A DNA stretch of 64,000 nucleotides from Phycisphaeraceae bacterium (GTDB lineage Bacteria > Planctomycetota > Phycisphaerae > Phycisphaerales > UBA1924). Positions 3,805 through 32,639 of this stretch are shown in pieces; positions within the stretch are counted from its first letter, which is position 1, and the number at the start of each line of letters is the position of its first letter. Both the position numbers and the translations under genes were made by a program. Below the pieces are notes generated by a model. The model had not been told where the DNA came from. It saw only the letters and a list, made by a program, of their open reading frames with translations, and made no database searches. The stretch is taken from assembly GCA_019636655.1 (NCBI GenBank), contig JAHBXB010000006.1:62001-126000 (forward strand). The letters are read 5' to 3'.

Positions 3805-4815
3805 ATGATCGACATTCGAAAGTTGACCAAGCGGTTCGGGCCCTTTGTCGCGGTGGACGGGGTTTCACTTCAGGTGCAGAGGGGCGAGGTGCTCGGGTTC
3901 CTGGGGCCTAACGGCGCCGGGAAATCCACGACGATGAAGATGGTGACCGGTTTCCTGACACCCACCAGCGGCACGGCCGTGGTGTGCGGGTTTGACGTCA
4001 CCGAGTCGCCGCTGGCAGTGAAGGAGAAGATTGGCTACCTGCCGGAGGGCGCGCCCGCGTACCCGGAGATGACGCCCGAGTCGTTCCTTCGGTTCGTGGC
4101 GGAGGTGCGCGGGCTCAAGGGGGCGGCGCGGGCCAAGCGGGTTGCCGAGGTGACCGACACGGTGCACCTGGAGGGGGTGATGCGGCAGCCGATCGAGACA
4201 CTGTCGAAGGGGTACAAGCGTCGGGTCGGGCTCGCCGCGGCAATCCTGCATGATCCGGATGTGCTGATCATGGATGAGCCGACGGACGGGCTGGACCCGA
4301 ACCAGAAGGCGGAGGTGCGGGGGTTGATTTCGGAGATGTCGCCGCGGAAGGCGATCCTGCTGTCGACGCACATCCTGGAGGAGGTGGAGGCGGTGTGCAC
4401 ACGGGCGGTAATCATCGCCCGCGGGCGCGTGGTGGCCGATGGGACGCCGGCGCAGTTGCAGGCGCGGTCGCGGTACCACAACGCGGTGGCGATGAGTGTC
4501 CGGGGCGGCGCGGCGGGGGCGATCACCAGCGAGTTGTCGCGAGTGGCTGGCGTGGCAGGGGTGCAGGAGATGACGGGGGAGCGGTCCGCGGCGGCCGGGA
4601 ACGGGACGGTTCGCGTGATCGTGTTCCCTCGTGATGGGAGGGCCATCCTGGGCGAGGTCAGCCAGGCGGCGAGGGTAAAGGGGTGGGAGGTGGACGAAAT
4701 CAGGGTCGAGACCGGGCGGCTCGACGAGGTGTTCCGATCGATCACCGGCGGGCCGGGCGGGGGCGGTGCCGAGTCGGGGAGCGGCGGCGGGGCTGTGAAG
4801 GGAGGCGGGCAATGA
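3805..4815 (+). CDS. ABC transporter ATP-binding protein (GldA-like)
   Basis: A 336-residue ATPase of the drug/Gld-type exporter class that drives the permease encoded next. Walker A is GPNGAGKS at residues 34-41, the signature LSKGYKRR at 133-140, Walker B VLIMDEPT at 153-160 and the switch His189 in 'STHI'. The C-terminal 100 residues form the accessory domain typical of such ATPases, ending in a Gly/Ser-rich tail. The ATG at 3805 is chosen over upstream in-frame starts because the homologous region begins with 'MIDIRKLTKRFG'. Its stop overlaps the start of the permease gene (ATGA at 4812-4815), indicating translational coupling. Confidence 0.92.
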   Translation: MIDIRKLTKRFGPFVAVDGVSLQVQRGEVLGFLGPNGAGKSTTMKMVTGFLTPTSGTAVVCGFDVTESPLAVKEKIGYLPEGAPAYPEMTPESFLRFVAEVRGLKGAARAKRVAEVTDTVHLEGVMRQPIETLSKGYKRRVGLAAAILHDPDVLIMDEPTDGLDPNQKAEVRGLISEMSPRKAILLSTHILEEVEAVCTRAVIIARGRVVADGTPAQLQARSRYHNAVAMSVRGGAAGAITSELSRVAGVAGVQEMTGERSAAAGNGTVRVIVFPRDGRAILGEVSQAARVKGWEVDEIRVETGRLDEVFRSITGGPGGGGAESGSGGGAVKGGGQ

Positions 4816-5558
4816 CCGGCGTGGCGCGCACGTGGGCGGTGTGCAAGCGGGAACTGGGCGGGTACTTCGTCACGCCGGTGGCGTACGTGTTCATCGTGAT
4901 CTTCCTGCTGGTGACGGGGATGTTCACCTTCTCCGGGGCGCTCGGGGCGTTCTTCGAGCGGGGGCAGGCGGACCTTTCGAGTTTCTTTGGGTTTCATCCG
5001 TGGCTGTACCTGTTCCTGATCCCGGCGGTGTCGATGCGGCTGTGGGCGGAGGAGCGCAAGCAGGGGACGCTGGAGCTGCTGCTGACGCTGCCGATCCCGC
5101 TGCCGGCCGCGGTAGCCGGGAAGTTCCTGGCGGCGTGGTTGTTCACGGCGGTGGCGTTGGCGCTGACGTTCCCGGTGTGGATCACGGTGAACTACCTCGG
5201 CAAGCCGGACAACGGCGTGATCGTGGCCGGGTACGTCGGCAGCCTCCTGATGGCGGGGGGGTACCTGGCGATCGGATCGTTCGTTTCGGCGATGACGCGG
5301 AACCAGGTGATCGCGTTCGTGATCACAGTGGTGGTCTGTTTCCTGTTCCTGATCGCGGGGTTCGACCCGGTGATGAGCGCCGTGACGGGGTGGGCTCCGC
5401 AGGCGGTGGTGGACGCGATCGCGTCGTTCTCGTTCCTGACGCGGTTCGACTCGATCAGCAAGGGAGTGATCGATGCGCGGGACCTGGTGTTCTTCGTGTC
5501 GCTGATGACGGTGTTCCTGATCGGGACGGCGGTCGTGGTCGAGTCGAAGAAGTCGTAG
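4812..5558 (+). CDS. ABC-2 type permease (GldF-like)
   Basis: A 248-residue integral membrane protein with about six hydrophobic segments. It starts 'VCKRELGGYFVTPVAYVFI', and the first loop carries 'MRLWAEERKQGTLELLLTLPI', the hallmark of GldF/NosY-like ABC-2 permeases. It partners the ATPase upstream, with which it overlaps by 4 nt, and the GldG-like protein 18 nt downstream. In Bacteroidetes the homologous GldA-GldF-GldG set is needed for gliding and secretion, but related sets are widespread in non-gliding bacteria. The substrate here cannot be read from sequence. Confidence 0.88.
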   Translation: MTGVARTWAVCKRELGGYFVTPVAYVFIVIFLLVTGMFTFSGALGAFFERGQADLSSFFGFHPWLYLFLIPAVSMRLWAEERKQGTLELLLTLPIPLPAAVAGKFLAAWLFTAVALALTFPVWITVNYLGKPDNGVIVAGYVGSLLMAGGYLAIGSFVSAMTRNQVIAFVITVVVCFLFLIAGFDPVMSAVTGWAPQAVVDAIASFSFLTRFDSISKGVIDARDLVFFVSLMTVFLIGTAVVVESKKS

Positions 5559-22575: not shown

Positions 22576-23793
22576 ATGCCGAACATCGATCCAAGCACGT
22601 TTGATCTTCTCACCCTCACCCTGGTGCCCGGCCTCGGCCCTGTACTCATTGGGCGAGCCGTCGAGGCGCTCGGCTCCCCGGCGGCCGCCGTCGCGGCCTC
22701 GGAGACCACCCTGCGGGGGATCAAGGGACTCGGAGCGGATCGCGCTCGAAAGGCCGCATCGGGTCTGCGCGAGGCGTCGCGACTCGCGGAGCGGGAGTGC
22801 GCCGAAGCGGAGCGGCTTGGTGCTCGCATCATCGGCTGGGATGAACCGGCGTACCCATCTCTGCTTCGCACGATTCCCGGCGCCCCGCCGGTGCTCTACG
22901 TGCTGGGGCGGGCCGAAGCCTTGTCATCCGATGGCTACCCGGTGGCGATCGTCGGCTCCCGCTCATGCACTCCCTACGGCATCGAGCAGTCGGAGCGGTT
23001 CGCGATGCACTTGGCGCAGGCCGGCCTCACGGTCGTGTCCGGAGGGGCCCGAGGCATCGACACCGCCGCGCACCGCGGGGCTATGCGGGCGGGGGCGGGC
23101 TCGTCCGGCGGGGTGACGGTCGCGGTCCTCGGCTGCGGCCTCACTCATCGCTACCCGCCCGACAACGTCCAGTTGTTCGATTCGATGATCTCCTCCGGCG
23201 GGGCGCTGGTGTCGGAGCTTCCCCTGTCGACTCCGCCCACTGCGGAGAACTTCCCCGCGCGCAACCGGATCATCTCGGGCCTCTCGCTCGGCGTCATCGT
23301 GATCGAGGCGGGGCGCAAGTCAGGGGCGTTGATCACGGCCCGCGACGCCGCGGAGTCCCACGGCCGCGAGGTCTTCGCCGTGCCCGGCCGGGTAGATTCT
23401 GCCGCGAGCGAGGGGACGCTTTCGCTTCTGAAGTCCGGAGGAGCCGCCTTGGTAACCCACCCGGCCGATGTCGTCGAGGCTCTCGAGGGGCCGGCGCGGC
23501 ACCAGTTCCTGGGGACGCACGCGGCGAGGTTCCAACTGGCCCCGTGCGATGGGGAGGGCGTCGGCGAAGACTTGCCTGCCGCGACCCACGCCGAATCGAG
23601 CGGCGGACCGTGGAATGGAGTCGGACTCAGCGACTCTCAGCGGGTGATCGTCGAGGCGCTCGCCGACGCGATGACGGTCGATGAACTGTCGCGGGCTACG
23701 GGGATGGACGTCGGTGCGCTCCGGGGGGAGGTCACGATGCTGGAGATCCAGCGGCGGGTCAGGCGAGTGGGCACTCGCATCGCCAGGGTGTGA
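22576..23793 (+). CDS. dprA: DNA-processing protein DprA
   Basis: A 405-residue protein that loads RecA on incoming single-stranded DNA during transformation. Order: N-terminal helix-hairpin-helix/SAM-like part ('LTLVPGLGPVLIGRAVEALG', 'IKGLGADRARK'), Rossmann-like core ('VAIVGSRSCTPYGIEQS', 'VVSGGARGIDTAAHRGAM', 'VAVLGCGLTHRYPPDN', 'FPARNRIISGLSLGVIVIEA', 'FAVPGRVDSAASEGTLSLLKSGGAAL'), and a C-terminal winged helix ('VIVEALADAMTVDELSRATGMDVGALRGEVTMLEIQ'). No ribosome site is obvious at ATG 22576; ATG 22534 is in frame. It is divergent from the deaminase and 29 nt before kynU. Confidence 0.95.
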   Translation: MPNIDPSTFDLLTLTLVPGLGPVLIGRAVEALGSPAAAVAASETTLRGIKGLGADRARKAASGLREASRLAERECAEAERLGARIIGWDEPAYPSLLRTIPGAPPVLYVLGRAEALSSDGYPVAIVGSRSCTPYGIEQSERFAMHLAQAGLTVVSGGARGIDTAAHRGAMRAGAGSSGGVTVAVLGCGLTHRYPPDNVQLFDSMISSGGALVSELPLSTPPTAENFPARNRIISGLSLGVIVIEAGRKSGALITARDAAESHGREVFAVPGRVDSAASEGTLSLLKSGGAALVTHPADVVEALEGPARHQFLGTHAARFQLAPCDGEGVGEDLPAATHAESSGGPWNGVGLSDSQRVIVEALADAMTVDELSRATGMDVGALRGEVTMLEIQRRVRRVGTRIARV

Positions 23794-23822
23794 CCCCGCA
23801 CGACCGCGAGCGCCGTGCCATA

Positions 23823-25181
23823 ATGGCCTGCATGGCACACGCGGCGAGCGCAGGCACGGCACGACGAACGGACTACCGCAACGACGAGGCGTTCGCCCGG
23901 TCGATGGACCGGGCCGATCCGCTCGCGCCCTGGCGCCGGGAGTTCGAGTTTCCATCCCGCCTGGCGACTGGCAAGGGGGCAAGCCGGCGAGACTGCGTCT
24001 ACCTGGTCGGCAACTCGCTGGGCCTGATGCCGCGATCGGCGCGGGCGGCCGTTGAGCAGGAGCTGGACGACTGGGCCAGCCTGGGGGTCGAGGCGCACCT
24101 GAAGGGCCGCCAGCCGTGGTTCTCGTACCACGAGGTCTTCCGCGAGATGGGTGCCCGCTTGGTCGGGGCCAAGCCCGGCGAGGCGGTGATGATGAACTCC
24201 CTCACGGCCAACCTGCACCTGATGATGGTGTCGTTCTACCGGCCCACGAGTTTCCGCTACAAGATCGTCGTTGAGGACTCCCTCTTCCCGTCGGACAGCT
24301 ACGCGGTCGCCAGCCAGGCCGCGTTCCACGGGTTCGACCCGGACCAGGCGGTCGTCCGGCTCAAGCCCCGGCAGGGCGAACAGACCCTGCGCACCGAGGA
24401 CATCGTCGACTACCTCCGCGACGAGGGCGAGACCGTGGCCCTGGTCATGCTGGGCGCGGTGAACTACCTGACCGGGCAGTGGTTCGAGATGGAGAAGATC
24501 ACCGCAGCGGGCAAGGAACAGGGCTGCATGGTCGGCTGGGACCTCGCCCATGCCGCGGGCAACGTGCCGATGCGGCTGCACGACTGGGGCGTCGATTTCG
24601 CCGCGTGGTGCTCGTACAAGTACCTCAACTCCGGTCCCGGCGCAGTCGCCGGCTGCTTCGTCCACCAGCGACACGCCAAGGACTCCTCCCTGCCGCGGTT
24701 CGCCGGCTGGTGGGGGAACGATCCGAAGACTCGCTTCCGCATGGAGCCCGGGTTTGTTGCCAGGCCCGGGGCGGACGGCTGGCAGCTCAGCAACCCGCCG
24801 ATCCTGGCGATGGCCCCGCTCAAAGCCTCCCTCGAGATCTTCGACCAGGTCGGGATGGCGGCGCTGCGGAAGAAGTCGCTCGCCCTGACCGGGTACCTTG
24901 AGTGGATCGTGGACACCGTCGCGGGACAGGCTGTTGAAATCGTGACGCCGCGGGATCCGCGGCAGCGGGGGGCCCACCTCTCCCTCGCGGTGCGCGCCGG
25001 GGACGGCGGGGCTCGGGCGAAGAAGAACCCGAGCCGCTCGCTCTTCGACCGCCTGACCCAAGCCGGGGTGGTGTGCGATTTCCGCGAGCCGAACGTGATC
25101 CGCGCCGCGCCGGCGCCGCTGTACTGTTCGTTCCACGACGTGTGGCGCTTCGGCAAGGCGCTCGAATCCGCCCTGACGTGA
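23823..25181 (+). CDS. kynU: Kynureninase
   Basis: A PLP enzyme of about 452 residues that cleaves kynurenine or 3-hydroxykynurenine to (3-hydroxy)anthranilate and alanine. The PLP lysine is Lys266 in 'CSYKYLNSGPG'; other family blocks are 'YLVGNSLGLMP', 'MNSLTANLHLMMVSFYRPT', 'FPSDSYAVASQ', 'GWDLAHAAGNVPMRLHDWGVDFA' and 'WQLSNPPIL'. The start is uncertain: GTG 23790 overlaps the dprA stop, and ATGs at 23823 and 23832 follow; none has a clear ribosome site. kmo begins 19 nt downstream, forming a kynU-kmo-kynB operon. Confidence 0.96.
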   Translation: MACMAHAASAGTARRTDYRNDEAFARSMDRADPLAPWRREFEFPSRLATGKGASRRDCVYLVGNSLGLMPRSARAAVEQELDDWASLGVEAHLKGRQPWFSYHEVFREMGARLVGAKPGEAVMMNSLTANLHLMMVSFYRPTSFRYKIVVEDSLFPSDSYAVASQAAFHGFDPDQAVVRLKPRQGEQTLRTEDIVDYLRDEGETVALVMLGAVNYLTGQWFEMEKITAAGKEQGCMVGWDLAHAAGNVPMRLHDWGVDFAAWCSYKYLNSGPGAVAGCFVHQRHAKDSSLPRFAGWWGNDPKTRFRMEPGFVARPGADGWQLSNPPILAMAPLKASLEIFDQVGMAALRKKSLALTGYLEWIVDTVAGQAVEIVTPRDPRQRGAHLSLAVRAGDGGARAKKNPSRSLFDRLTQAGVVCDFREPNVIRAAPAPLYCSFHDVWRFGKALESALT

Positions 25182-25200
25182 GCGACTCCCAGGAGCCCCG

Positions 25201-26616
25201 ATGGCCATCGGAGACGGCAAGAAGGTCGTGATCGTCGGGGCCGGGCTCGCCGGTTCGCTCATGGCGTGCTACCTCGCGGACCTGGGCTACGAGATCCACG
25301 TCTACGAGCGCCGCCCGGACCCGCGCAAGAAGGGGTACGTCGGCGGACGATCGATCAACCTCGCCCTCTCGGCGCGGGGCATCAAGGGCCTCGCCGGCGC
25401 TGGGCTCGACAAAAAAGTCCTTGCCGAGGCCATCCCGATGCGCGGCCGGATGGTGCACCCCGTCTCGGGCCCCCTCGCTTTCCAGGCCTACAGCAAGAAT
25501 CGCTCCGACGCGATCAACTCGATCTCCCGCGGCGGACTCAACCTCCTCCTGATCGAGGCCGCGGCGAAACGCCCCGGCGTGAAGTTCTACTTTGACCAGC
25601 GGTGCCTCGACGTCGGCCTCGACGCACCGAGCGTGACCTTCAAGGACCAGCGGCCGGCCGAGGAAGGCGGCGCCGGGCTCACCGGCAGGGTCGAGGCCGA
25701 CCTGGTCATCGGGGCCGACGGCGCCTTCTCCGCGGTCCGCGCCCGGATGCAGATCCAGGACCGCTTCGAGTACAGCCAGTCATACCTCGGTCACGGGTAC
25801 AAGGAACTCCACATCCCCGCCCGCCGGGGGCGCTCCGGGCCCGAGTTCGCGATGGAGCCCAACGCGCTGCACATCTGGCCGCGGGGCGGCTCGATGATGA
25901 TCGCGCTGCCGAACCCGGACAAGAGCTTCACCTGCACGCTCTTCTGGCCCTTCGAAGGGCCTCACGGGTTCGGTAACCTCAAGACGCCCGAGCAGGTCGA
26001 GCGGTTCTTCAAGGGGAACTACCCCGACTTCCCCGCCCTCAGCCCCTCCTTCGTGCAGGACTATCTGACCAACCCGGTCAGTTCGCTGGTCACAGTGCGG
26101 TGCGCACCTTGGTGGACGCCGGGCTCCAAGCCGCGGCAGATCACGGGCGGTGTCGGCGGGACCGTCCTGATCGGCGATGCCGCCCACGCGATCGTCCCGT
26201 TCTTCGGGCAGGGAATGAACTGCGCGTTCGAGGACTGCACCGCGCTCGCCGAGTGCCTCAAGCGGTTCGGCGGCGACCTGACCAGGGCCCTGCCGCAGTA
26301 CGGCGAGGATCGGACCGACAACGCCGAGGCGATCGCCGACATGGCGATCACCAACTTCATCGAGATGCGGGACAAGGTTGCGTCACGGGCATTCCGGGCA
26401 AAGAAGAAGCTCGAGCACGCCCTCCATGCGATTCTTCCCGGTCACTTCGTGCCGCTCTACAACATGGTGAGCTTCTCGACCATCCCTTACGCCGAGGCGC
26501 GCCGGCGGGCGCAGCGGCAATCCCAGGTGATCCAGGCCGTGGCCATCTGGGCTGGCGTTGTCGTCGGTGGGCTTGCGCTGGGCATGCTCATCGGACGCCT
26601 GCGCGCCGGCGGGTGA
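25201..26616 (+). CDS. kmo: Kynurenine 3-monooxygenase
   Basis: A 471-residue FAD enzyme that hydroxylates kynurenine with NADPH and O2. The dinucleotide motif 'VIVGAGLAGSLMACYLADLG' is at the N-terminus, followed by 'GRSINLALSARG'; 'DLVIGADGAFSAVR', 'HGYKELHIP' and 'VLIGDAAHAIVPFFGQGMNCAFEDC' are the other diagnostic blocks. A hydrophobic helix at the very C-terminus (about 447-467, 'AVAIWAGVVVGGLALGMLIG') suggests membrane tethering, as in the mitochondrial enzyme. AGGAG precedes the ATG by about 5 nt. Second gene of the kyn operon. Confidence 0.95.
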   Translation: MAIGDGKKVVIVGAGLAGSLMACYLADLGYEIHVYERRPDPRKKGYVGGRSINLALSARGIKGLAGAGLDKKVLAEAIPMRGRMVHPVSGPLAFQAYSKNRSDAINSISRGGLNLLLIEAAAKRPGVKFYFDQRCLDVGLDAPSVTFKDQRPAEEGGAGLTGRVEADLVIGADGAFSAVRARMQIQDRFEYSQSYLGHGYKELHIPARRGRSGPEFAMEPNALHIWPRGGSMMIALPNPDKSFTCTLFWPFEGPHGFGNLKTPEQVERFFKGNYPDFPALSPSFVQDYLTNPVSSLVTVRCAPWWTPGSKPRQITGGVGGTVLIGDAAHAIVPFFGQGMNCAFEDCTALAECLKRFGGDLTRALPQYGEDRTDNAEAIADMAITNFIEMRDKVASRAFRAKKKLEHALHAILPGHFVPLYNMVSFSTIPYAEARRRAQRQSQVIQAVAIWAGVVVGGLALGMLIGRLRAGG

Positions 26617-26648
26617 GGATGCCGTCATTCTCCACAGGAGAGATTGCC

Positions 26649-27296
26649 ATGCCGCCGAAGATCTACGACATCACTCCACCGGTCACGGAGCGGCTCGGCG
26701 TCTGGCCCGGCGACACGCCGATGTCGCGCGAGGTGCTGTGCGAGATCGAGAAGGGGGCGAGCATCACCCTCAGCACGATCCGCGCCACCGTCCACCTGGG
26801 GGCTCACGCCGATGGTCCCAACCACTACGGCGCCGGCGCCCCCGCGATCAGCGAGCGGTCCCTCGACTACTACCTCGGGTCGTGCGATGTGGTCGAGGCC
26901 GGTGTCGCGCGGGGCCTCCGCGTGGAACCGGACGACATCAGAACGCAGGCCGGCCGCGGCCTCGCGGCGATTCGCCACCCTCGCATACTCATCCGCACCG
27001 GTACCTACCCCGATGCCGAGGACTTCAGCAGAGACTTTGCCGGGCTCTCGGTTGAGCTGATCGACGCCCTTGCGGCCCGGGGCGTGGTGACAGTCGGCAT
27101 CGACACTCCCAGCGTCGACCTCTTCGATTCCAAGAACCTCCCCGCGCACAAGGCGATCCTGGCTCATGACATGGCGATCCTCGAGGGGATCGACCTTCGC
27201 GGGGTTCCGCTCGGGTCCTATGAACTGATCGCCCTGCCGCTGAAACTCGTCGGGTTCGACGCCAGCCCGGTCCGGGCCGTGCTCCGCAGCCTGTAG
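26649..27296 (+). CDS. kynB: Kynurenine formamidase (arylformamidase, KynB type)
   Basis: A 215-residue metal-dependent cyclase-family hydrolase that converts N-formylkynurenine to kynurenine. The metal motif is His49, His53, Asp55 and His59 in 'VHLGAHADGPNHYG'; 'GVWPGDTP' near residue 20 and 'GIDTPSVDLFDSKNLPAH' are typical of bacterial KynB. AGGAGA is 7 nt before ATG 26649. It is the last gene of kynU-kmo-kynB. No tryptophan 2,3-dioxygenase, the preceding step, is in the window. Confidence 0.94.
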   Translation: MPPKIYDITPPVTERLGVWPGDTPMSREVLCEIEKGASITLSTIRATVHLGAHADGPNHYGAGAPAISERSLDYYLGSCDVVEAGVARGLRVEPDDIRTQAGRGLAAIRHPRILIRTGTYPDAEDFSRDFAGLSVELIDALAARGVVTVGIDTPSVDLFDSKNLPAHKAILAHDMAILEGIDLRGVPLGSYELIALPLKLVGFDASPVRAVLRSL

Positions 27297-27316
27297 GCCC
27301 GCCCCGCGCGCCGCCG

Positions 27317-27754
27317 TCACGGAACCGTTGCGACAATCTTCACTTCAAAGGCGATCGGCGCGTTGCCGCCCTGCGGGAGGGCCCCGATCTGAATCGTCGT
27401 GCGCGTCGGCTGGTTCGGGCCCGGCGGGAAGTACTCAGCCCACAAGCGGTTGTATACGGCGAAATCCCGCTTCATGTCCGTGAGGAACACGAGCACGTCG
27501 ACGATCCGGTCCCACGACGACCCCGCCTCGGCGAGGATCTCCCTCACGTTGTCGAAGCACGAGCGGACCTGGGCCTCGATGTCGTAGGACGCAACCACGC
27601 CGGAAGCGTCGAGCGTGACGCCGGGGATGTCCTTGCTGCCGCGCCGACGCGGGCCGACGCCCGAGAGAAACAGCAGGTTCCCCACCCGCCGTGCGTGCGG
27701 ATACGCCCCGACGGGTTCCGCCGCCTTCGCGCTGTTGGTGGCGTTGTTCGTCAT
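27317..27754 (-). CDS. RidA-family 2-aminomuconate deaminase candidate
   Basis: A 145-residue RidA/YjgF-fold protein ('GNLLFLSGVGPRRRGSKDIPGVTLD', 'FDNVREILAEAGSSWDRIVDVLVFLTDM', 'PTRTTIQIGALP'). The Arg in 'PTRTT' is the conserved substrate-carboxylate contact. The 'SGVGPRxRG' variant and its coupling to a muconic semialdehyde dehydrogenase gene resemble 2-aminomuconate deaminases of the nitrobenzoate/kynurenine routes, which hydrolyse 2-aminomuconate to 4-oxalocrotonate. GAGGAG sits 6 nt before the ATG. General imine hydrolase activity is the alternative. It converges with kynB (20 nt). Confidence 0.8.
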   Translation of the reverse strand: MTNNATNSAKAAEPVGAYPHARRVGNLLFLSGVGPRRRGSKDIPGVTLDASGVVASYDIEAQVRSCFDNVREILAEAGSSWDRIVDVLVFLTDMKRDFAVYNRLWAEYFPPGPNQPTRTTIQIGALPQGGNAPIAFEVKIVATVP

Positions 27755-27791
27755 GGTGCACTCCTCGCCGGGGTGGAGCCGTCAGCGGCCG

Positions 27792-29303
27792 CTACAGCCT
27801 CACGCACACGTTCTTGGCCTCGGTAAAGAACTTCACCGCATCCCACCCCCCCTCGCGGCCGACTCCGCTCTGCTTCATCCCCCCAAAGGGCGTCCGCAGA
27901 TCGCGCACCATCCAGCAGTTGGCCCAGATGATCCCCGCGTCCAGGACGGAGGCGACGCGGTGCAGGCGCGATGCGTCGGAGGTGAACAGCGTCGCCGCGA
28001 GCCCGTACGGAGTTCCATTGGCGAGTGCGATCGCCTCATCCTCGTCGTCAAACGGCTGCAGCGTGACGACCGGGCCGAAGATCTCCTCCTGCTCTACGCG
28101 GCAGGAAGGATTGAGCCCGCTGATCACCGTCGGCAGGTAGAACGCCCCGGCACGGACCCGCGCCGGGAGCGACGCCGGATCGGGCCGGGCCCCGCCGCAG
28201 TGCACCGTCCCGTCCAGTTCGCGGGCCGCCTTCACGAGAGAGTCCACCTTCTCCAGGTGGGCCGCGCCGACCAGCGATCCGAGTTGTGTCCGCTCGTCGC
28301 GAGGGTCGCCCGGACGCATGGCCCGAGCCATCTCGGCCAGTTGCTCCAGCACACGGGGGAACACGCGCCGGTGCACCAGCAGCCTCGAGCCGCACAGGCA
28401 GATCTGGCCCTGGTTCGTGAACGCCGCGCGGCAGGCTGTCTCGATCGCGCCCGCCGGTCCGTCGAGCCGCGCATCGTCGAACACGATGAACGGGTTCTTG
28501 CCACCCAGTTCGAGAGACACCCGCTTGAGCATCGAGCCGCCGGTCTCGCCGATCCACCGCCCAACCGGTGTCGATCCGGTGAACGAGATCGTGGGAACCT
28601 CTGGGTGGCGGACGATCTCGCTGCCGCACCCCAGGCCCGTGCCGTGCACGATGTTCACCACGCCCGGCGGCAGCCCCGCTTCGCCGAACAACTCCGCCAG
28701 CAGGTGCGCCGTCATCGGCGTCACCTCGGAGGGTTTCGCAACGCAGGTGTTCCCCGTCGCGATCGCCGGCGCGATCTTCCACGTCAGCAGGTACAGCGGC
28801 AGGTTCCACGGCGAGATCAGCCCGGCGACGCCGCGCGGCCGGCGAAGCGTGTAGTTGATCGCCCTGCCCGACTGGCCGCTCGATGGCGACGGACCCGAGG
28901 AGGCGATGTCCGTTTCGTGGAACTCCGATGATGTGTGCAGGATCGCGGTCGCGAAGAACCGGAAGTTCGCCGCGGAACGGGGCACATCCACCGCGCGGGC
29001 GAGCGAGACCGGTTTGCCGGAGTCCGTCGACTCGGCCTCGGCGAGCCGATCGAGGTTGGCATCGATCAGGTCGGCGAGCCTGAGGAGGATGCGCGCACGC
29101 TCCCCCGCGGGCGTGGCCGACCACTCCGGGAACGCGCCCGCAGCGGCATCGACCGCGGCCTGCACATCGCGTCCGTCCGAATCGGGCACGACTCCATACG
29201 CCGCGCCCGTCGCAGGCTCGATGTTGTCCAGGTAGGCTCCGCCCGCGGGCGGCACGAACCGGCCGTCGATGAAGTTCGCGAGTTGCGCAGGAAGCGTCGG
29301 CAT
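27792..29303 (-). CDS. 2-aminomuconic semialdehyde dehydrogenase
   Basis: A 503-residue NAD-dependent aldehyde dehydrogenase. Catalytic residues: Asn167 ('SPWNLPL'), Glu265 ('LELGGKN') and Cys302 ('NQGQICLCGSR'). The C-terminal 'WANCWMVRDLRTPFGGMKQSGVGREGG' is the mark of the 2-hydroxy/2-aminomuconic semialdehyde and ALDH8 group. With the deaminase 37 nt downstream and the kyn genes opposite, it should oxidise the product formed after decarboxylation of aminocarboxymuconate semialdehyde. The decarboxylase for that step is not in the window. ATG 29303 begins the homologous region; upstream open frame is not conserved. Confidence 0.88.
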   Translation of the reverse strand: MPTLPAQLANFIDGRFVPPAGGAYLDNIEPATGAAYGVVPDSDGRDVQAAVDAAAGAFPEWSATPAGERARILLRLADLIDANLDRLAEAESTDSGKPVSLARAVDVPRSAANFRFFATAILHTSSEFHETDIASSGPSPSSGQSGRAINYTLRRPRGVAGLISPWNLPLYLLTWKIAPAIATGNTCVAKPSEVTPMTAHLLAELFGEAGLPPGVVNIVHGTGLGCGSEIVRHPEVPTISFTGSTPVGRWIGETGGSMLKRVSLELGGKNPFIVFDDARLDGPAGAIETACRAAFTNQGQICLCGSRLLVHRRVFPRVLEQLAEMARAMRPGDPRDERTQLGSLVGAAHLEKVDSLVKAARELDGTVHCGGARPDPASLPARVRAGAFYLPTVISGLNPSCRVEQEEIFGPVVTLQPFDDEDEAIALANGTPYGLAATLFTSDASRLHRVASVLDAGIIWANCWMVRDLRTPFGGMKQSGVGREGGWDAVKFFTEAKNVCVRL

Positions 29304-29356: not shown

Positions 29357-30385
29357 CTACAGGCGCCCGGACGCCCTCGCCGCGCCCGCGGACAGCTCGG
29401 AGAGCGCCCCGGAGAATGCACCGAGCTGCCGACTGAGTTCGTGGCGCAGCGAGTCCACAATTCCGGCAATCGCCGGCGGCAGCGGCGGCGCCTCTGCGCC
29501 GTCGGAGCCCGGCTGCGGCTCCAGCAACACCCCCCGCCACGGCTCGAGCCGCTCGATCATCTCCGCGAGCCGCGTGATCAGCTCGCGGTGCGCGGCCACC
29601 GTCTCCGACACCGACTCAGAGGCCCCACGGAGTTCGCTTGTCCTTGCCTCCAGGATCGACTGCGCCGACCTGCACAGGTCCACCGCGTCGCGCAGCGATT
29701 CCTGGAGCGAATCGTGCTCGCGCCGGAACCGATCCGTCTCGTCTGAGGCGACCACCAGCGATTGCCCAAGCACCGTCCTCGCCGACTCGGTCTGCTGGCG
29801 GATCGAATCCAGCTGCGCCGCGGCCTGCGTCGATCGCGACAGCAGCGACTCGGCCCGTGCGATCACCGCCGGCAACGCCTCGGCCGATGGCGACACGAGC
29901 ACATCGGCCCGGCTCACCAGGCCCCGCAGCGACTTGGTCTGCTCGTCCCCGACTCCCTCGATCGTCCGTGCAAAGTGGGCCGTGCGTTCCGCGATGATCT
30001 CGTCGGTGCGCTCCTGGAACTGCCGGACCGAAGAGGCCGAATCGGTCGCCCTTTCCAGCATCCTCTCGATCTGCTGCACCCGCGCATCCAGCGACGACAG
30101 CGTCGCCGCTGCCTGGTCCAGCCGGGCCTGCTGCACTTCGGCCGCGCTCCGGATCGCCTCCAGCGCCCGCTCGGCCCCGACCGTCGCGGCCCTGAGCGGC
30201 TCGATCTGTGCCGCCGCCCGCTCGATCAACGACTGCAGCGCCGCGGCGAACTCGCCGAGCGCGTTCTGGTCCACGACACGCGGCGACACAAACATCCCCG
30301 CCGGAACCTGACCGGGCAGGGGCTTCACCTCGACGGGCGCGGCGAGCGGGGCAACAGTCCGGGACGCTTGGGTCGAACGGGGCAT
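29357..30385 (-). CDS. Coiled-coil protein next to bactofilin genes
   Basis: A 342-residue soluble protein with no membrane segment and no family I recognise. A Pro-rich N-terminus (to about residue 35) is followed by a long helical coiled coil (about 40-270, e.g. 'LSSLDARVQQIERMLERATDSASSVRQFQERTDEIIAERTAHFARTIEG' in overlapping heptads), a Pro-rich linker and a C-terminal helix. The helical pattern is reminiscent of methyl-accepting chemotaxis-type or apolipoprotein-like bundles, but no signalling hairpin tip is visible. It follows two bactofilin-like genes on the same strand with a 60-nt gap, so a cytoskeletal partner role is plausible but unproven. Confidence 0.6.
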   Translation of the reverse strand: MPRSTQASRTVAPLAAPVEVKPLPGQVPAGMFVSPRVVDQNALGEFAAALQSLIERAAAQIEPLRAATVGAERALEAIRSAAEVQQARLDQAAATLSSLDARVQQIERMLERATDSASSVRQFQERTDEIIAERTAHFARTIEGVGDEQTKSLRGLVSRADVLVSPSAEALPAVIARAESLLSRSTQAAAQLDSIRQQTESARTVLGQSLVVASDETDRFRREHDSLQESLRDAVDLCRSAQSILEARTSELRGASESVSETVAAHRELITRLAEMIERLEPWRGVLLEPQPGSDGAEAPPLPPAIAGIVDSLRHELSRQLGAFSGALSELSAGAARASGRL

Positions 30386-30445
30386 GGTTCGGATCCGGGA
30401 GACCTCGGCGGGGTCCGCGAGGGACCACCGCGCACAGGCAGGTGG

Positions 30446-30976
30446 TTACGAAAACGCGGGCGCGAACAGCGATGCAAGGCGTGACCGCGGACGCGATGCT
30501 GCGGCGCGCGGGGGCTCATCGGGGACCTGGATCGGCGCGGCGGGCACACGGTCCTCGGCCGCGTCATCGACGGACTCCACAGGCGGGGTGATCTCGAAGT
30601 GCCCCGCGAGCACCGTCGAGCCCGGGTGGACGATCAGGGAGGACGCCCTGACGTTCCCGGAATGCACGGCCCCGGGCGCGAGGTAGAAGTGTCCCGGTGT
30701 CGCCGCCGACTCGGCCTGCAGCCGGCCGTGGACCTCGATGCCCCCGGATGCCTGAACAACCTTGGCGGTGACCCGTCCCCGCGCCGTGATGACCAGCCGC
30801 CCGCACGTCTGCAGCCGCGTCACCGACTGCGCCGCCTCGACGATCACGTCGGAGAGCCTCAGGTGCTGGTAGCACAGCGGGCACGTCAGCGTGATCGCCT
30901 GCGAACTCGCGGAGAACGAGCGCGAGCAGTTGTAGCAGAGGACCAGTCGTGGGGTGGGGTGGCGGGCCATCGACAT
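30446..30976 (-). CDS. Bactofilin-like protein with N-terminal zinc ribbon
   Basis: A 176-residue protein. Residues about 14-36 hold a zinc ribbon (CYNCSRSF ... CPLCYQHL), followed by a bactofilin-type beta-helix of about 100 residues with six-residue periodicity ('LVITARGRVTAKVVQASGGIEVHGRLQAE', 'SGNVRASSLIVHPGSTVLAGHFEI') and a Pro/Arg-rich tail. Bactofilins polymerise without nucleotides into filaments that position envelope enzymes. The start is uncertain between ATG 30976 and 30970; neither has a strong ribosome site. It lies 46 nt after the canonical bactofilin gene. Confidence 0.72.
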   Translation of the reverse strand: MSMARHPTPRLVLCYNCSRSFSASSQAITLTCPLCYQHLRLSDVIVEAAQSVTRLQTCGRLVITARGRVTAKVVQASGGIEVHGRLQAESAATPGHFYLAPGAVHSGNVRASSLIVHPGSTVLAGHFEITPPVESVDDAAEDRVPAAPIQVPDEPPRAAASRPRSRLASLFAPAFS

Positions 30977-31022
30977 GCGGGGTGCGAGGGACACGATCGG
31001 CCGCGAGCCTGGGCCCGGCGCC

Positions 31023-31538
31023 CTAGGCCTGCGGCGCCGCCGCCGGGCGGGGCTTTCCCATGCTGGCGAGCTTGGTCTCGAGGCCCGCAAGCGTGGCCTC
31101 CAGGTCCGCGGTGACAGTGGGGACCGGCGTCGCGCGGGCGCTGTTGTTCGTGCCCGGACGGGGCCGGGGCTGCGCGGGAGTCTCCGGGCGCGGGTTCGCC
31201 GGGGCGATCGACTCCGCCCCCGCGCCCACCCGGCAGTGGCCGATGAACGTCGCCCCCTGGACCACAACCAGCGTTCCGGCCGTGATGTTGCCGACAAGCC
31301 TCGCCTTGGCGCCCAGTTGCAGCGACTCGTGCGCCACGACATCGCCCTCGACCGAGCCGTCGATCTGGACCGTGTTGGCGGTCAGGTCGGCCTTGCACGA
31401 GCCGGTATCGCCGATGTGCAGGTCCGTCTTTGCTGAGATGGTGCCCTCGAACGTCCCCTGGATCCTCGCCGCGTTGTCAAAGGCCATGTCGCCCTTGATC
31501 ACCGAGCCGGGTCCGATGACCGTCACGTTGTCCGCCAT
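31023..31538 (-). CDS. Bactofilin family cytoskeletal protein
   Basis: A 171-residue polymer-forming protein with the standard bactofilin layout: a short N-terminal segment ('MADNVTVIGPGSVIKGDMAFDNAARIQG'), a right-handed beta-helix of repeating hydrophobic/Gly turns ('GTFEGTISAKTDLHIGDTGSCKADLTANTVQIDGSVEGDVVAHESLQLG' in overlapping turns), and a Pro-rich C-terminal tail of about 65 residues with a predicted helix. GGAGA is 8 nt before ATG 31538. It is the first gene of a three-gene minus-strand cluster (this, zinc-ribbon bactofilin, coiled-coil protein). Confidence 0.88.
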   Translation of the reverse strand: MADNVTVIGPGSVIKGDMAFDNAARIQGTFEGTISAKTDLHIGDTGSCKADLTANTVQIDGSVEGDVVAHESLQLGAKARLVGNITAGTLVVVQGATFIGHCRVGAGAESIAPANPRPETPAQPRPRPGTNNSARATPVPTVTADLEATLAGLETKLASMGKPRPAAAPQA

Positions 31539-31697
31539 GATGCATCTCTCCAGGGGCGCGTGGGGCGCGAGGGGCTCGTGCGGTGGGGGCATGGGCGCAC
31601 CCCGTGCTCAACTCATGGATCGGCCGCCACGGCGTCCCCCGGCCAGTTTTTGGGTCTTTGGCGGGGTTGCTCGCTCCACCGCCGTACGATTGCGACG

Positions 31698-32639
31698 ATG
31701 CAGCGCACCCCCGCACCGACGACCGGCCCCGGCGAGCGACTCCAGCGGATCCTGGCGGATGCCGGCGTCGGTTCGCGCCGAGCCTGCGAGGAGATGATCG
31801 AGGCCGGACGCGTCGAGGTGAACGGTGAGATTGTCCGCACCCTGCCCGTCTTCGCCCACCCCGGCGTCGACCGCATCCACGTGGACGGGCGTCCGGTCAA
31901 GACCATCGCCCCGGGCGCCGGCCGGCTCGGCAGCGTTGGGCGAGGTGTGTACGTCATGCTCTACAAGCCCGCCCGCACGGTGTGCACGACCAGCGACGAG
32001 TACGGCCGCCGGACCGTGCTGGACCTCGTCGACCATCCGACCGGCGCCCGCCTGTTTCCGGTCGGAAGGCTCGACTACGAGGCCGCCGGCCTGCTCCTGC
32101 TCACCAACGATGGCGACATGGCCCACCGCCTGACCCACGCCCGGTACGGCATCGCGCGCCGCTATCTCGTCGAGGTCGGGGGAACCGTCGAAGCCGAGAA
32201 ACTCCCAAAGATCGAGAAAGAGGCCACGCGGATCGGCCGCCTCGCGGCCAGGAGCGAGCGCAAGGCCGCCGGCCGCACCCCAGATGGCCCCGACCTGAAG
32301 AAGGGACGCGTCGGCATGCGGGTCGTCAAGGTCCCCGGCCAAGGTGAACGCAAGACCATCCTCGAGGTCACGCTGGCCGAGGGACGCAACAGGCAGGTCG
32401 GCGTTGTCCTGAAGCGGGCCGGGTACGGCGTCAAGAAGGTGCTCTGCGTGGGTCTCGGCCCCCTCTCCCTGAAAGGGCTGGCGGTCGGCCAATGGCGGGA
32501 ACTGGACCGGACCGAGGTCCGCACCCTCAAGAAGGCCGTCGGGCTGGGCGACGACAGGAAGCCGGCCGCGGCGGGCAACCGGCACAAGTCGACCAAGCCC
32601 GCTCCAGCAAAGGTCCCCTCCAACGGGAGAAGCAGGTGA
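31698..32639 (+). CDS. Pseudouridine synthase, RsuA/RluB family
   Basis: A 313-residue enzyme with an N-terminal S4 RNA-binding domain ('RLQRILADAGVGSRRACEEMIEAGRVEVNGEIV') and a catalytic domain with the nucleophile Asp126 in 'GRLDYEAAGLLLLTNDG'. It converts uridine to pseudouridine, most likely in 23S rRNA (RluB-like). Two departures: after 'EGRNRQV' the usual Arg-Arg-Met is replaced by 'GVVLKRAG', and a basic insertion of about 35 residues ('RSERKAAGRTPDGPDLKKGRVG') interrupts the domain. The C-terminal tail is lysine-rich. Its stop overlaps the start of the YihY gene. Confidence 0.9.
   Translation: MQRTPAPTTGPGERLQRILADAGVGSRRACEEMIEAGRVEVNGEIVRTLPVFAHPGVDRIHVDGRPVKTIAPGAGRLGSVGRGVYVMLYKPARTVCTTSDEYGRRTVLDLVDHPTGARLFPVGRLDYEAAGLLLLTNDGDMAHRLTHARYGIARRYLVEVGGTVEAEKLPKIEKEATRIGRLAARSERKAAGRTPDGPDLKKGRVGMRVVKVPGQGERKTILEVTLAEGRNRQVGVVLKRAGYGVKKVLCVGLGPLSLKGLAVGQWRELDRTEVRTLKKAVGLGDDRKPAAAGNRHKSTKPAPAKVPSNGRSR

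Follow-up and report, generated by a model that had tools for sequence, protein, structure and literature searches.

Bactofilins form filaments that are non-polar and need no nucleotide (PMC10945521, PMC12364344). Their subunits contact each other through N-to-N and C-to-C interfaces, the former involving residues L46 and I56 of the A. biprosthecum protein, the latter a residue that is F134 in A. biprosthecum, F130 in C. crescentus, L110 in H. pylori and F105 in T. thermophilus (PMC12364344). Because the filaments are non-polar and assemble without nucleotides, it is an open point how cells limit and place them. Here, a locus is described in which the gene for a canonical bactofilin, BacA, is followed by genes for a bactofilin-derived protein starting with a putative zinc ribbon (zinc-ribbon bactofilin, ZRB) and for a coiled-coil-like protein (CC). 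The locus lies on a stretch of 64,000 nucleotides from a Phycisphaeraceae bacterium of the phylum Planctomycetota (assembly GCA_019636655.1, contig JAHBXB010000006.1, positions 62,001 to 126,000), which is called the window below and to which the coordinates refer. As already reported in a preliminary description made from the sequence alone, the three genes are arranged in tandem on the minus strand, in the order BacA (31023..31538), ZRB (30446..30970) and CC (29357..30385).

BacA, a protein of 171 residues, matched the Pfam bactofilin family PF04519 with 91.2 bits (E 5.2e-26, cut-off 27.9), so that its earlier designation as a canonical bactofilin is justified. In an AlphaFold model calculated from the window protein and 28 relatives, residues 5-105 (31224..31526, minus strand) form the beta-helix polymerisation domain and are superimposed on residues 12-112 of the T. 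thermophilus bactofilin (6rib) with a Z score of 19.5 and a root mean square deviation (rmsd) of 0.8 Å over 100 aligned residues. The top three structural matches were the three solved bactofilin entries, 6rib, 6ria and 2n3d. By the offset of +7 in the structural alignment, Phe98 occupies the place of T. thermophilus F105, and an alignment of 29 BacA sequences (28 of the 33 BacA loci plus the window) has Phe at the corresponding position in 28. The C-terminal tail is modelled with low confidence, including a predicted short helix at residues 147-158. A motif in the C-terminal part, LE-x-TLAGLE-x-(K/R)L (31065-31100), is common to the window and four other loci (L093, L097-L099); it is predicted to be helical in the model of the window protein and could possibly be a partner-binding peptide.

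The second gene probably starts with the M codon at 30970 (MARH...), resembling the MAK or MAR starts of many relatives, and specifies 174 residues; an alternative in-frame ATG at 30976 would yield 176. Judged by Pfam, the window ZRB falls below the bactofilin cut-off of 27.9 (22.5 bits, E 1.4e-4, residues 54-122 of the 176-residue form), a sister ZRB (L020) is above it with 30.7 bits, and all 31 ZRB members are matched by the bactofilin model at E<=0.01. The AlphaFold model, derived from the window ZRB and 30 relatives, shows block means of 92-98 in the predicted local distance difference test (pLDDT) over residues 11-130, ribbon included. Its residues 37-128 (30587..30862, minus strand) align with residues 26-112 of 6rib_A with a Z score of 14.8 and an rmsd of 1.4 Å over 87 residues, which indicates a beta-helix of the bactofilin type. 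Here, too, the solved bactofilin entries 6rib, 6ria and 2n3d were the top three structural matches (Z 14.8, 13.4 and 12.0). These values come from a second structural aligner, on which the fold assignment rests together with the Pfam matches; Foldseek alone placed bactofilins at E 0.1 and returned nothing at E<=0.001, and a sequence search of the PDB gave no relevant match for ZRB. In a profile-profile comparison of ZRB with BacA, support for homology was confined to the final 54 columns (93%, E 3e-7). The remaining C-terminal tail (30449..30583, minus strand; pLDDT block means 52-63) is probably disordered.

The two proteins differ at the start of the domain. While the BacA model is aligned from T. 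thermophilus residue 12, that of ZRB is aligned from residue 26, both ending at 112, and the Pfam profile is entered at positions 11-31 by the listed ZRBs and at positions 1-5 by canonical bactofilins. According to the models, the ribbon replaces the first 14 or so residues of the bactofilin domain and stands in front of a shortened beta-helix. ZRB had previously been described as a bactofilin-like protein preceded by a ribbon; the N-terminal position of the ribbon was borne out, but rather than being added to an intact domain it appears to take the place of its N-terminal part. Since the alignment of the predicted model begins at T. thermophilus residue 26 instead of 12, ZRB is not predicted to offer a complete domain with both the N-to-N and the C-to-C face and is regarded as a bactofilin-derived paralogue, not as a canonical bactofilin. 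The alignment with C. crescentus BacA begins only at residue 54, past L46; the L46 region seems to be without counterpart in ZRB, and I56 would lie at the margin of what can be aligned. At the C-to-C position, Ile or Val is found in 29 of 31 ZRBs, with Phe and Leu in one each, and a near-invariant Phe follows five residues further on in 28 of 31. C-to-C pairing may nevertheless be possible with an aliphatic residue, given that H. pylori has Leu at this place.

The predicted ribbon of ZRB has the arrangement C12-x2-C15-x14-C30-x2-C33 (30872..30937, minus strand; numbering of the 174-residue form), which was obtained in none of 20000 shuffles of the window protein. Two CxxC knuckles are present in 128 of 129 loci, and the spacing between them is 14 in all 128, with 10-24 allowed in the search; in the remaining locus (G331) the assembly has Ns at the ribbon. 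The 128 loci do not stand for 128 species, as named contigs and genome handles overlap, and correspond to 108 distinct sequences after removal of repeats. The cysteines are kept in all 108 and in 31 of 31 alignment rows, which had been preselected from 44 match places by a pattern requiring four cysteines plus CG. Conservation of the ribbon, on which the preliminary description depended, is therefore strict down to the exact spacing. The ribbon is predicted with confidence (pLDDT block means 92-96, residues 11-40), and Foldseek placed 32 of its columns on the HOIP RBR structure at 1.5 Å (probability 0.96, E 0.89). With two knuckles, fixed spacing and a ribbon-like predicted fold, it can be assigned to the C4 zinc ribbons as a fold type, and it is likely to bind zinc. 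No named ribbon family was matched above cut-off by the window ZRB, whose N-terminus gave weak zinc-ribbon hits in Pfam, or by L020, the two of the 31 members for which scores are shown. At the weak threshold of E<=1, the NCBIfam ribbon models for DmmA and for an MJ0042-type finger were hit by 27 and 10 of 31 members, respectively, and a model for a putative Zn-ribbon RNA-binding protein by 14 of 31. A fifth cysteine, in a TCG motif (C56 of the 174-residue form), was considered as a universal metal ligand and rejected: just 63 of the 108 distinct sequences contain TCG, and in 27 no motif was detected by pattern. It is invariant in both smaller ZRB alignments, in the one of 31 rows by selection; from the second, three loci with GTG or TTG starts (L069, L074, L076) had been left out.

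Searches in other genomes revealed that the conserved unit is the pair of BacA and ZRB. Using a profile, ZRB was detected in 41 of 61 related genomes, and strong full-length bactofilin matches were obtained in 42, with both present in 40; the last two counts, like those of the 64 and 80 genomes in the phylum draw and of the 26 genomes containing both CC and ZRB below, are manual readings of match tables. Two genomes had the bactofilin only (G035, G045), one had ZRB only (G025, locus L031, where the sequence ends about 100 bases upstream), and in one (G005) a bactofilin fragment is found at a contig edge. When named genomes were scanned using a closer alignment, 33 ZRB loci were identified, all from Planctomycetota; 26 carry the label Phycisphaerae or that of a lower rank within it. 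A bactofilin gene is located just upstream on the same strand in all 33, separated by 14-198 bp. In an even draw of 392 genomes from the phylum, 74 matched the ZRB profile, 64 including the ribbon part and ten in the bactofilin part only; one of the 64 is G331, in which the match starts at model position 23 due to the Ns. As the best nine candidates were scored in nearly all of these genomes, a missing ZRB is no proof of absence. Full-length bactofilins (E<=1e-18) were present, among the matches listed, in 80 of 392 genomes. All 64 ZRB genomes, which are spread over 16 families, belong to these 80, and in each of them the bactofilin gene precedes ZRB on the same strand, with 100-595 bp between the domain matches. 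In the other 312 genomes of the draw no ZRB was found among the candidates scored. Fourteen further genomes showed weaker or partial bactofilin matches only, among the matches listed, one being nearly full-length with 30.1 bits (G108). Overall, a bactofilin gene is found upstream in 126 of the 128 ribbon-bearing loci. The two others are L031, mentioned above, and L010 of genome G034, which has a full-length bactofilin on another contig.

Two ribbons in tandem were found in 14 loci (L161-L174), which represent all ZRB-bearing genomes of two families, f50 and f95, in the phylum draw. The hydrazine synthase alpha domain PF18582, which we take to be a marker of anammox, was detected in all ten tested genomes of these families, in one of four others and in none of 14 controls. 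Because of this distribution, f50 and f95 look like anammox bacteria. A correspondence without exception between two ribbons and the anammox enzyme had to be dismissed, since the one positive genome among the four others, G116, has a single ribbon (L125). This genome belongs to the same class as the window; its match is located at C2:111083-111379 (E 2.7e-19), and it is possibly an anammox relative outside f50 and f95.

The third gene of the locus specifies 342 residues. Its designation as a coiled-coil protein outside the known families was supported, as CC exceeded the cut-off of no Pfam or NCBIfam family among those shown and gave weak, mostly coiled-coil matches; among the 25 Pfam families shown for the CC members, none matched more than two of 26. 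There is no long hydrophobic stretch, the highest mean hydropathy over 19 residues being 1.01. The members share an N-terminal box with the consensus VFLSPRVxD-x2-AF-x-E-x-A-x2-LR-x-LI, in which P, R and D are invariant by construction since they were part of the selecting pattern; two loci without the pattern (L052, L059) and two repeats (L064 and L066 of L040 and L044) were dropped. In the window, the box reads MFVSPRVVD and extends with the following stretch over residues 31-59 (30209..30295, minus strand). Among the 61 related genomes, 31 were matched by a profile of it, 30 belonging to the window's family, which is represented by 37 genomes, and one to another. In the phylum draw, 11 of 392 genomes were matched, ten from the same family and one, weakly, from f2; the best 16 candidates per genome were scored, so that absences in the draw are soft. 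A C-terminal segment containing LEPWRGVLL (29360..29548, minus strand) was recognised by pattern in nine of 26 members including that of the window. From the box on, the length of CC in the available sequences varies from 241 to 689 residues (loci L037-L063), while the box itself is retained.

From these data a model can be proposed, the chances of which are put at somewhat below even: BacA and ZRB would constitute a two-component module, in which a one-sided ZRB caps or joins BacA filaments and the ribbons serve as docking sites. BacA would polymerise normally via its N-to-N and C-to-C faces. ZRB would be an anciently diverged bactofilin paralogue whose ribbon substitutes for the N-terminal portion of the beta-helix, which contains the N-to-N face wholly or in part, and whose C-terminal end is retained, with Ile or Val for the polymerisation Phe. 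Alone it should not polymerise, but via its C-to-C face it would join the end of a BacA filament, or pair, and thereby limit filament length. The ribbon would be displayed for a client to dock on. In the two families with the anammox enzyme domain, two ribbons would be displayed, and in the lineage of the window the neighbouring CC would be the candidate client. If all of this is combined, Planctomycetota would have a hitherto undescribed bactofilin cytoskeleton made of two subunits, with a metal-bearing, one-faced ZRB setting filament length and ribbons as client receptors, doubled in anammox-type lineages, and CC as an operon client in one lineage of Phycisphaerales; in this extended form the proposal is possible but doubtful.

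Several observations weigh against capping by ZRB. Loss of the interface was judged from aligned ranges of monomer models only, and I56 is at the very edge of the range. Partial loss of the N-to-N face need not stop polymerisation, because the I56R mutant of A. biprosthecum BacA still forms filaments (PMC12364344), and the ribbon could make a new contact. C-to-C pairing, in turn, may be weak, as ZRB does not have the near-invariant Phe of BacA. Sixteen of the 80 bactofilin genomes gave no ZRB match among their best nine candidates, and an all-against-all comparison of the 33 named loci and a further pair from the genome of the window, described below, yielded no widespread client gene, as no third gene adjoins the pair in more than seven of 34 loci. 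The mutant and the high-confidence beta-helix close to the solved bactofilins (Z 14.8) would also fit ZRB being an ordinary bactofilin that co-polymerises along the BacA filament, perhaps with ribbon-ribbon contacts for the N-to-N interface and with ribbons decorating or stabilising the polymer. As ZRB lacks the beginning of the domain and has another residue for the polymerisation Phe, this is rather unlikely. Alternatively, the ribbon could be a structural cap at the N-terminus of the beta-helix without binding function, making ZRB a simple filament terminator. Its location at the beginning of the helix and the strict spacing would be in accordance with such a role, but a second complete ribbon, as found in the 14 loci of two families, would be needless for a cap; the doubling speaks for an additional role of the ribbon as a binding module, and a purely structural cap is distinctly improbable. 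What is bound could be nucleic acid, as the preliminary description had considered, in which case the filament would be tethered to RNA or the nucleoid. The ribbon is mildly basic, its net charge over 30 residues being +2 in the window protein with a median of +3 among the 108 distinct sequences, and the weak similarity of 14 members to the RNA-binding model points in the same direction. The charge is modest, however, ranging from -1 to +7, and other weak matches are to the MJ0042-type finger. The ribbon of ZitP from Caulobacter is presumably of a type related to that of ZRB. It binds a protein (PMC5182065), and binding of nucleic acid is considered improbable.

A different arrangement would result if CC were the dedicated partner of ZRB, with three genes forming one operon for one function. 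The gene order BacA-ZRB-CC is found in four genomes (G000, G017, G031, G374) and ZRB-CC in G034, which together represent five genera. rluB was not detected within about 6 kb upstream of the bactofilins of G017 and G034, implying that the linkage outlived changed surroundings; in G374, no match was found within the approximately 700 bases of upstream sequence. The five CC-linked ZRBs cluster together with two further ones (support 86/89) in a tree of 65 distinct rows, in which deep support is weak and the bootstrap unsettled; nine loci without the pattern (L117, L120-L124, L127-L129) are not part of it, and long rows such as L126 were kept. On the other hand, CC and ZRB are located apart, on different contigs or at a distance, in 21 of the 26 genomes containing both. 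The usual neighbour of CC appears to be rluB, for which a match on the facing strand was found in 17 of 26 motif-bearing loci, directly in 15 and with the bactofilin pair in between in two (G000, G031). In the window, this is the RluB-like 23S rRNA pseudouridine synthase encoded by an open frame divergent from BacA (31560..32639, plus strand). Moreover, six of the 31 related genomes with CC (G011, G012, G022, G024, G033, G036) and five genomes of the window's family in the phylum draw (G093, G153, G229, G321, G368; 96-100% complete) had no bactofilin match. Since CC occurs where the bactofilin search found nothing, it cannot depend on bactofilins in general. Therefore, the trio, whose conservation in Phycisphaerae the preliminary description had suggested checking, was rejected as a general conserved unit; it is one particular form of the BacA-ZRB pair, which occurs widely across the phylum. 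One function for all three genes is unlikely, and a working link between CC and ZRB in one lineage is possible.

The genome of the window contains a second bactofilin-ZRB pair (G000 contig C2, L004), with genes at 4366-4806 and 4882-5292 on the same strand. Its ZRB is 35% identical to that of the window and belongs to a group of 16 rows in the tree (support 81/82), while the window copy is placed elsewhere with the CC-linked ZRBs, deep support being weak. For a viral or plasmid origin, no match was obtained in viral contigs, searched by strict peptide patterns, or in plasmids. Downstream of CC, at 23790-29303, a kynurenine-pathway cluster was noticed. It includes a kynureninase above cut-off and, below cut-offs, an FAD monooxygenase resembling VioC and proteins like arylformamidase, Rid-family hydrolase and hydroxymuconic semialdehyde dehydrogenase.

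ZRB is a real and well-conserved variant of a known cytoskeletal family. The preliminary description knew of no characterised example, and none was found in titles and abstract openings of the open-access literature, in a collection that does not extend to bioRxiv or to most subscription journals. If the model holds, a partner lacking part of one face, encoded beside the polymer in the majority of the bactofilin-bearing planctomycetes studied, would be a natural answer to the question of how filaments are limited and placed. It would also provide a handle on the cell organisation of Planctomycetota, among them the lineages in which the anammox enzyme domain was found.

With the canonical bactofilins, T. 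thermophilus Bac (6rib, 6ria) and C. crescentus BacA (2n3d), ZRB has the beta-helix in common; it differs from them in the 14 or so N-terminal domain residues, where a ribbon is predicted instead, and in Ile or Val for Phe. For the ribbon, the ZnR domain of ZitP in Caulobacter provides a precedent by analogy as a putative docking site for proteins. This small N-terminal zinc finger (zinc_ribbon_5) interacts with the cytoplasmic scaffold PopZ (PMC5182065). ZitP is a membrane protein with DUF3426 and not a bactofilin, whereas in ZRB the ribbon is placed on the scaffold-like protein itself. A bactofilin gene adjoining that of a functional partner, as may be the case here, is known from H. neptunium, where BacA is accompanied by the M23 peptidase LmdC (PMC10945521). 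In the planctomycetes the constant neighbour is the ribbon-bearing bactofilin, and no third gene occurs in more than seven of 34 loci, M23 peptidases not being searched by name. Finally, BacA and BacD of Hyphomonas are two bactofilin paralogues in one cell, as found here, but both are described as being of the typical architecture and bacD is located apart (PMC10945521), whereas the planctomycete genes are adjacent and one of the two products bears a ribbon.

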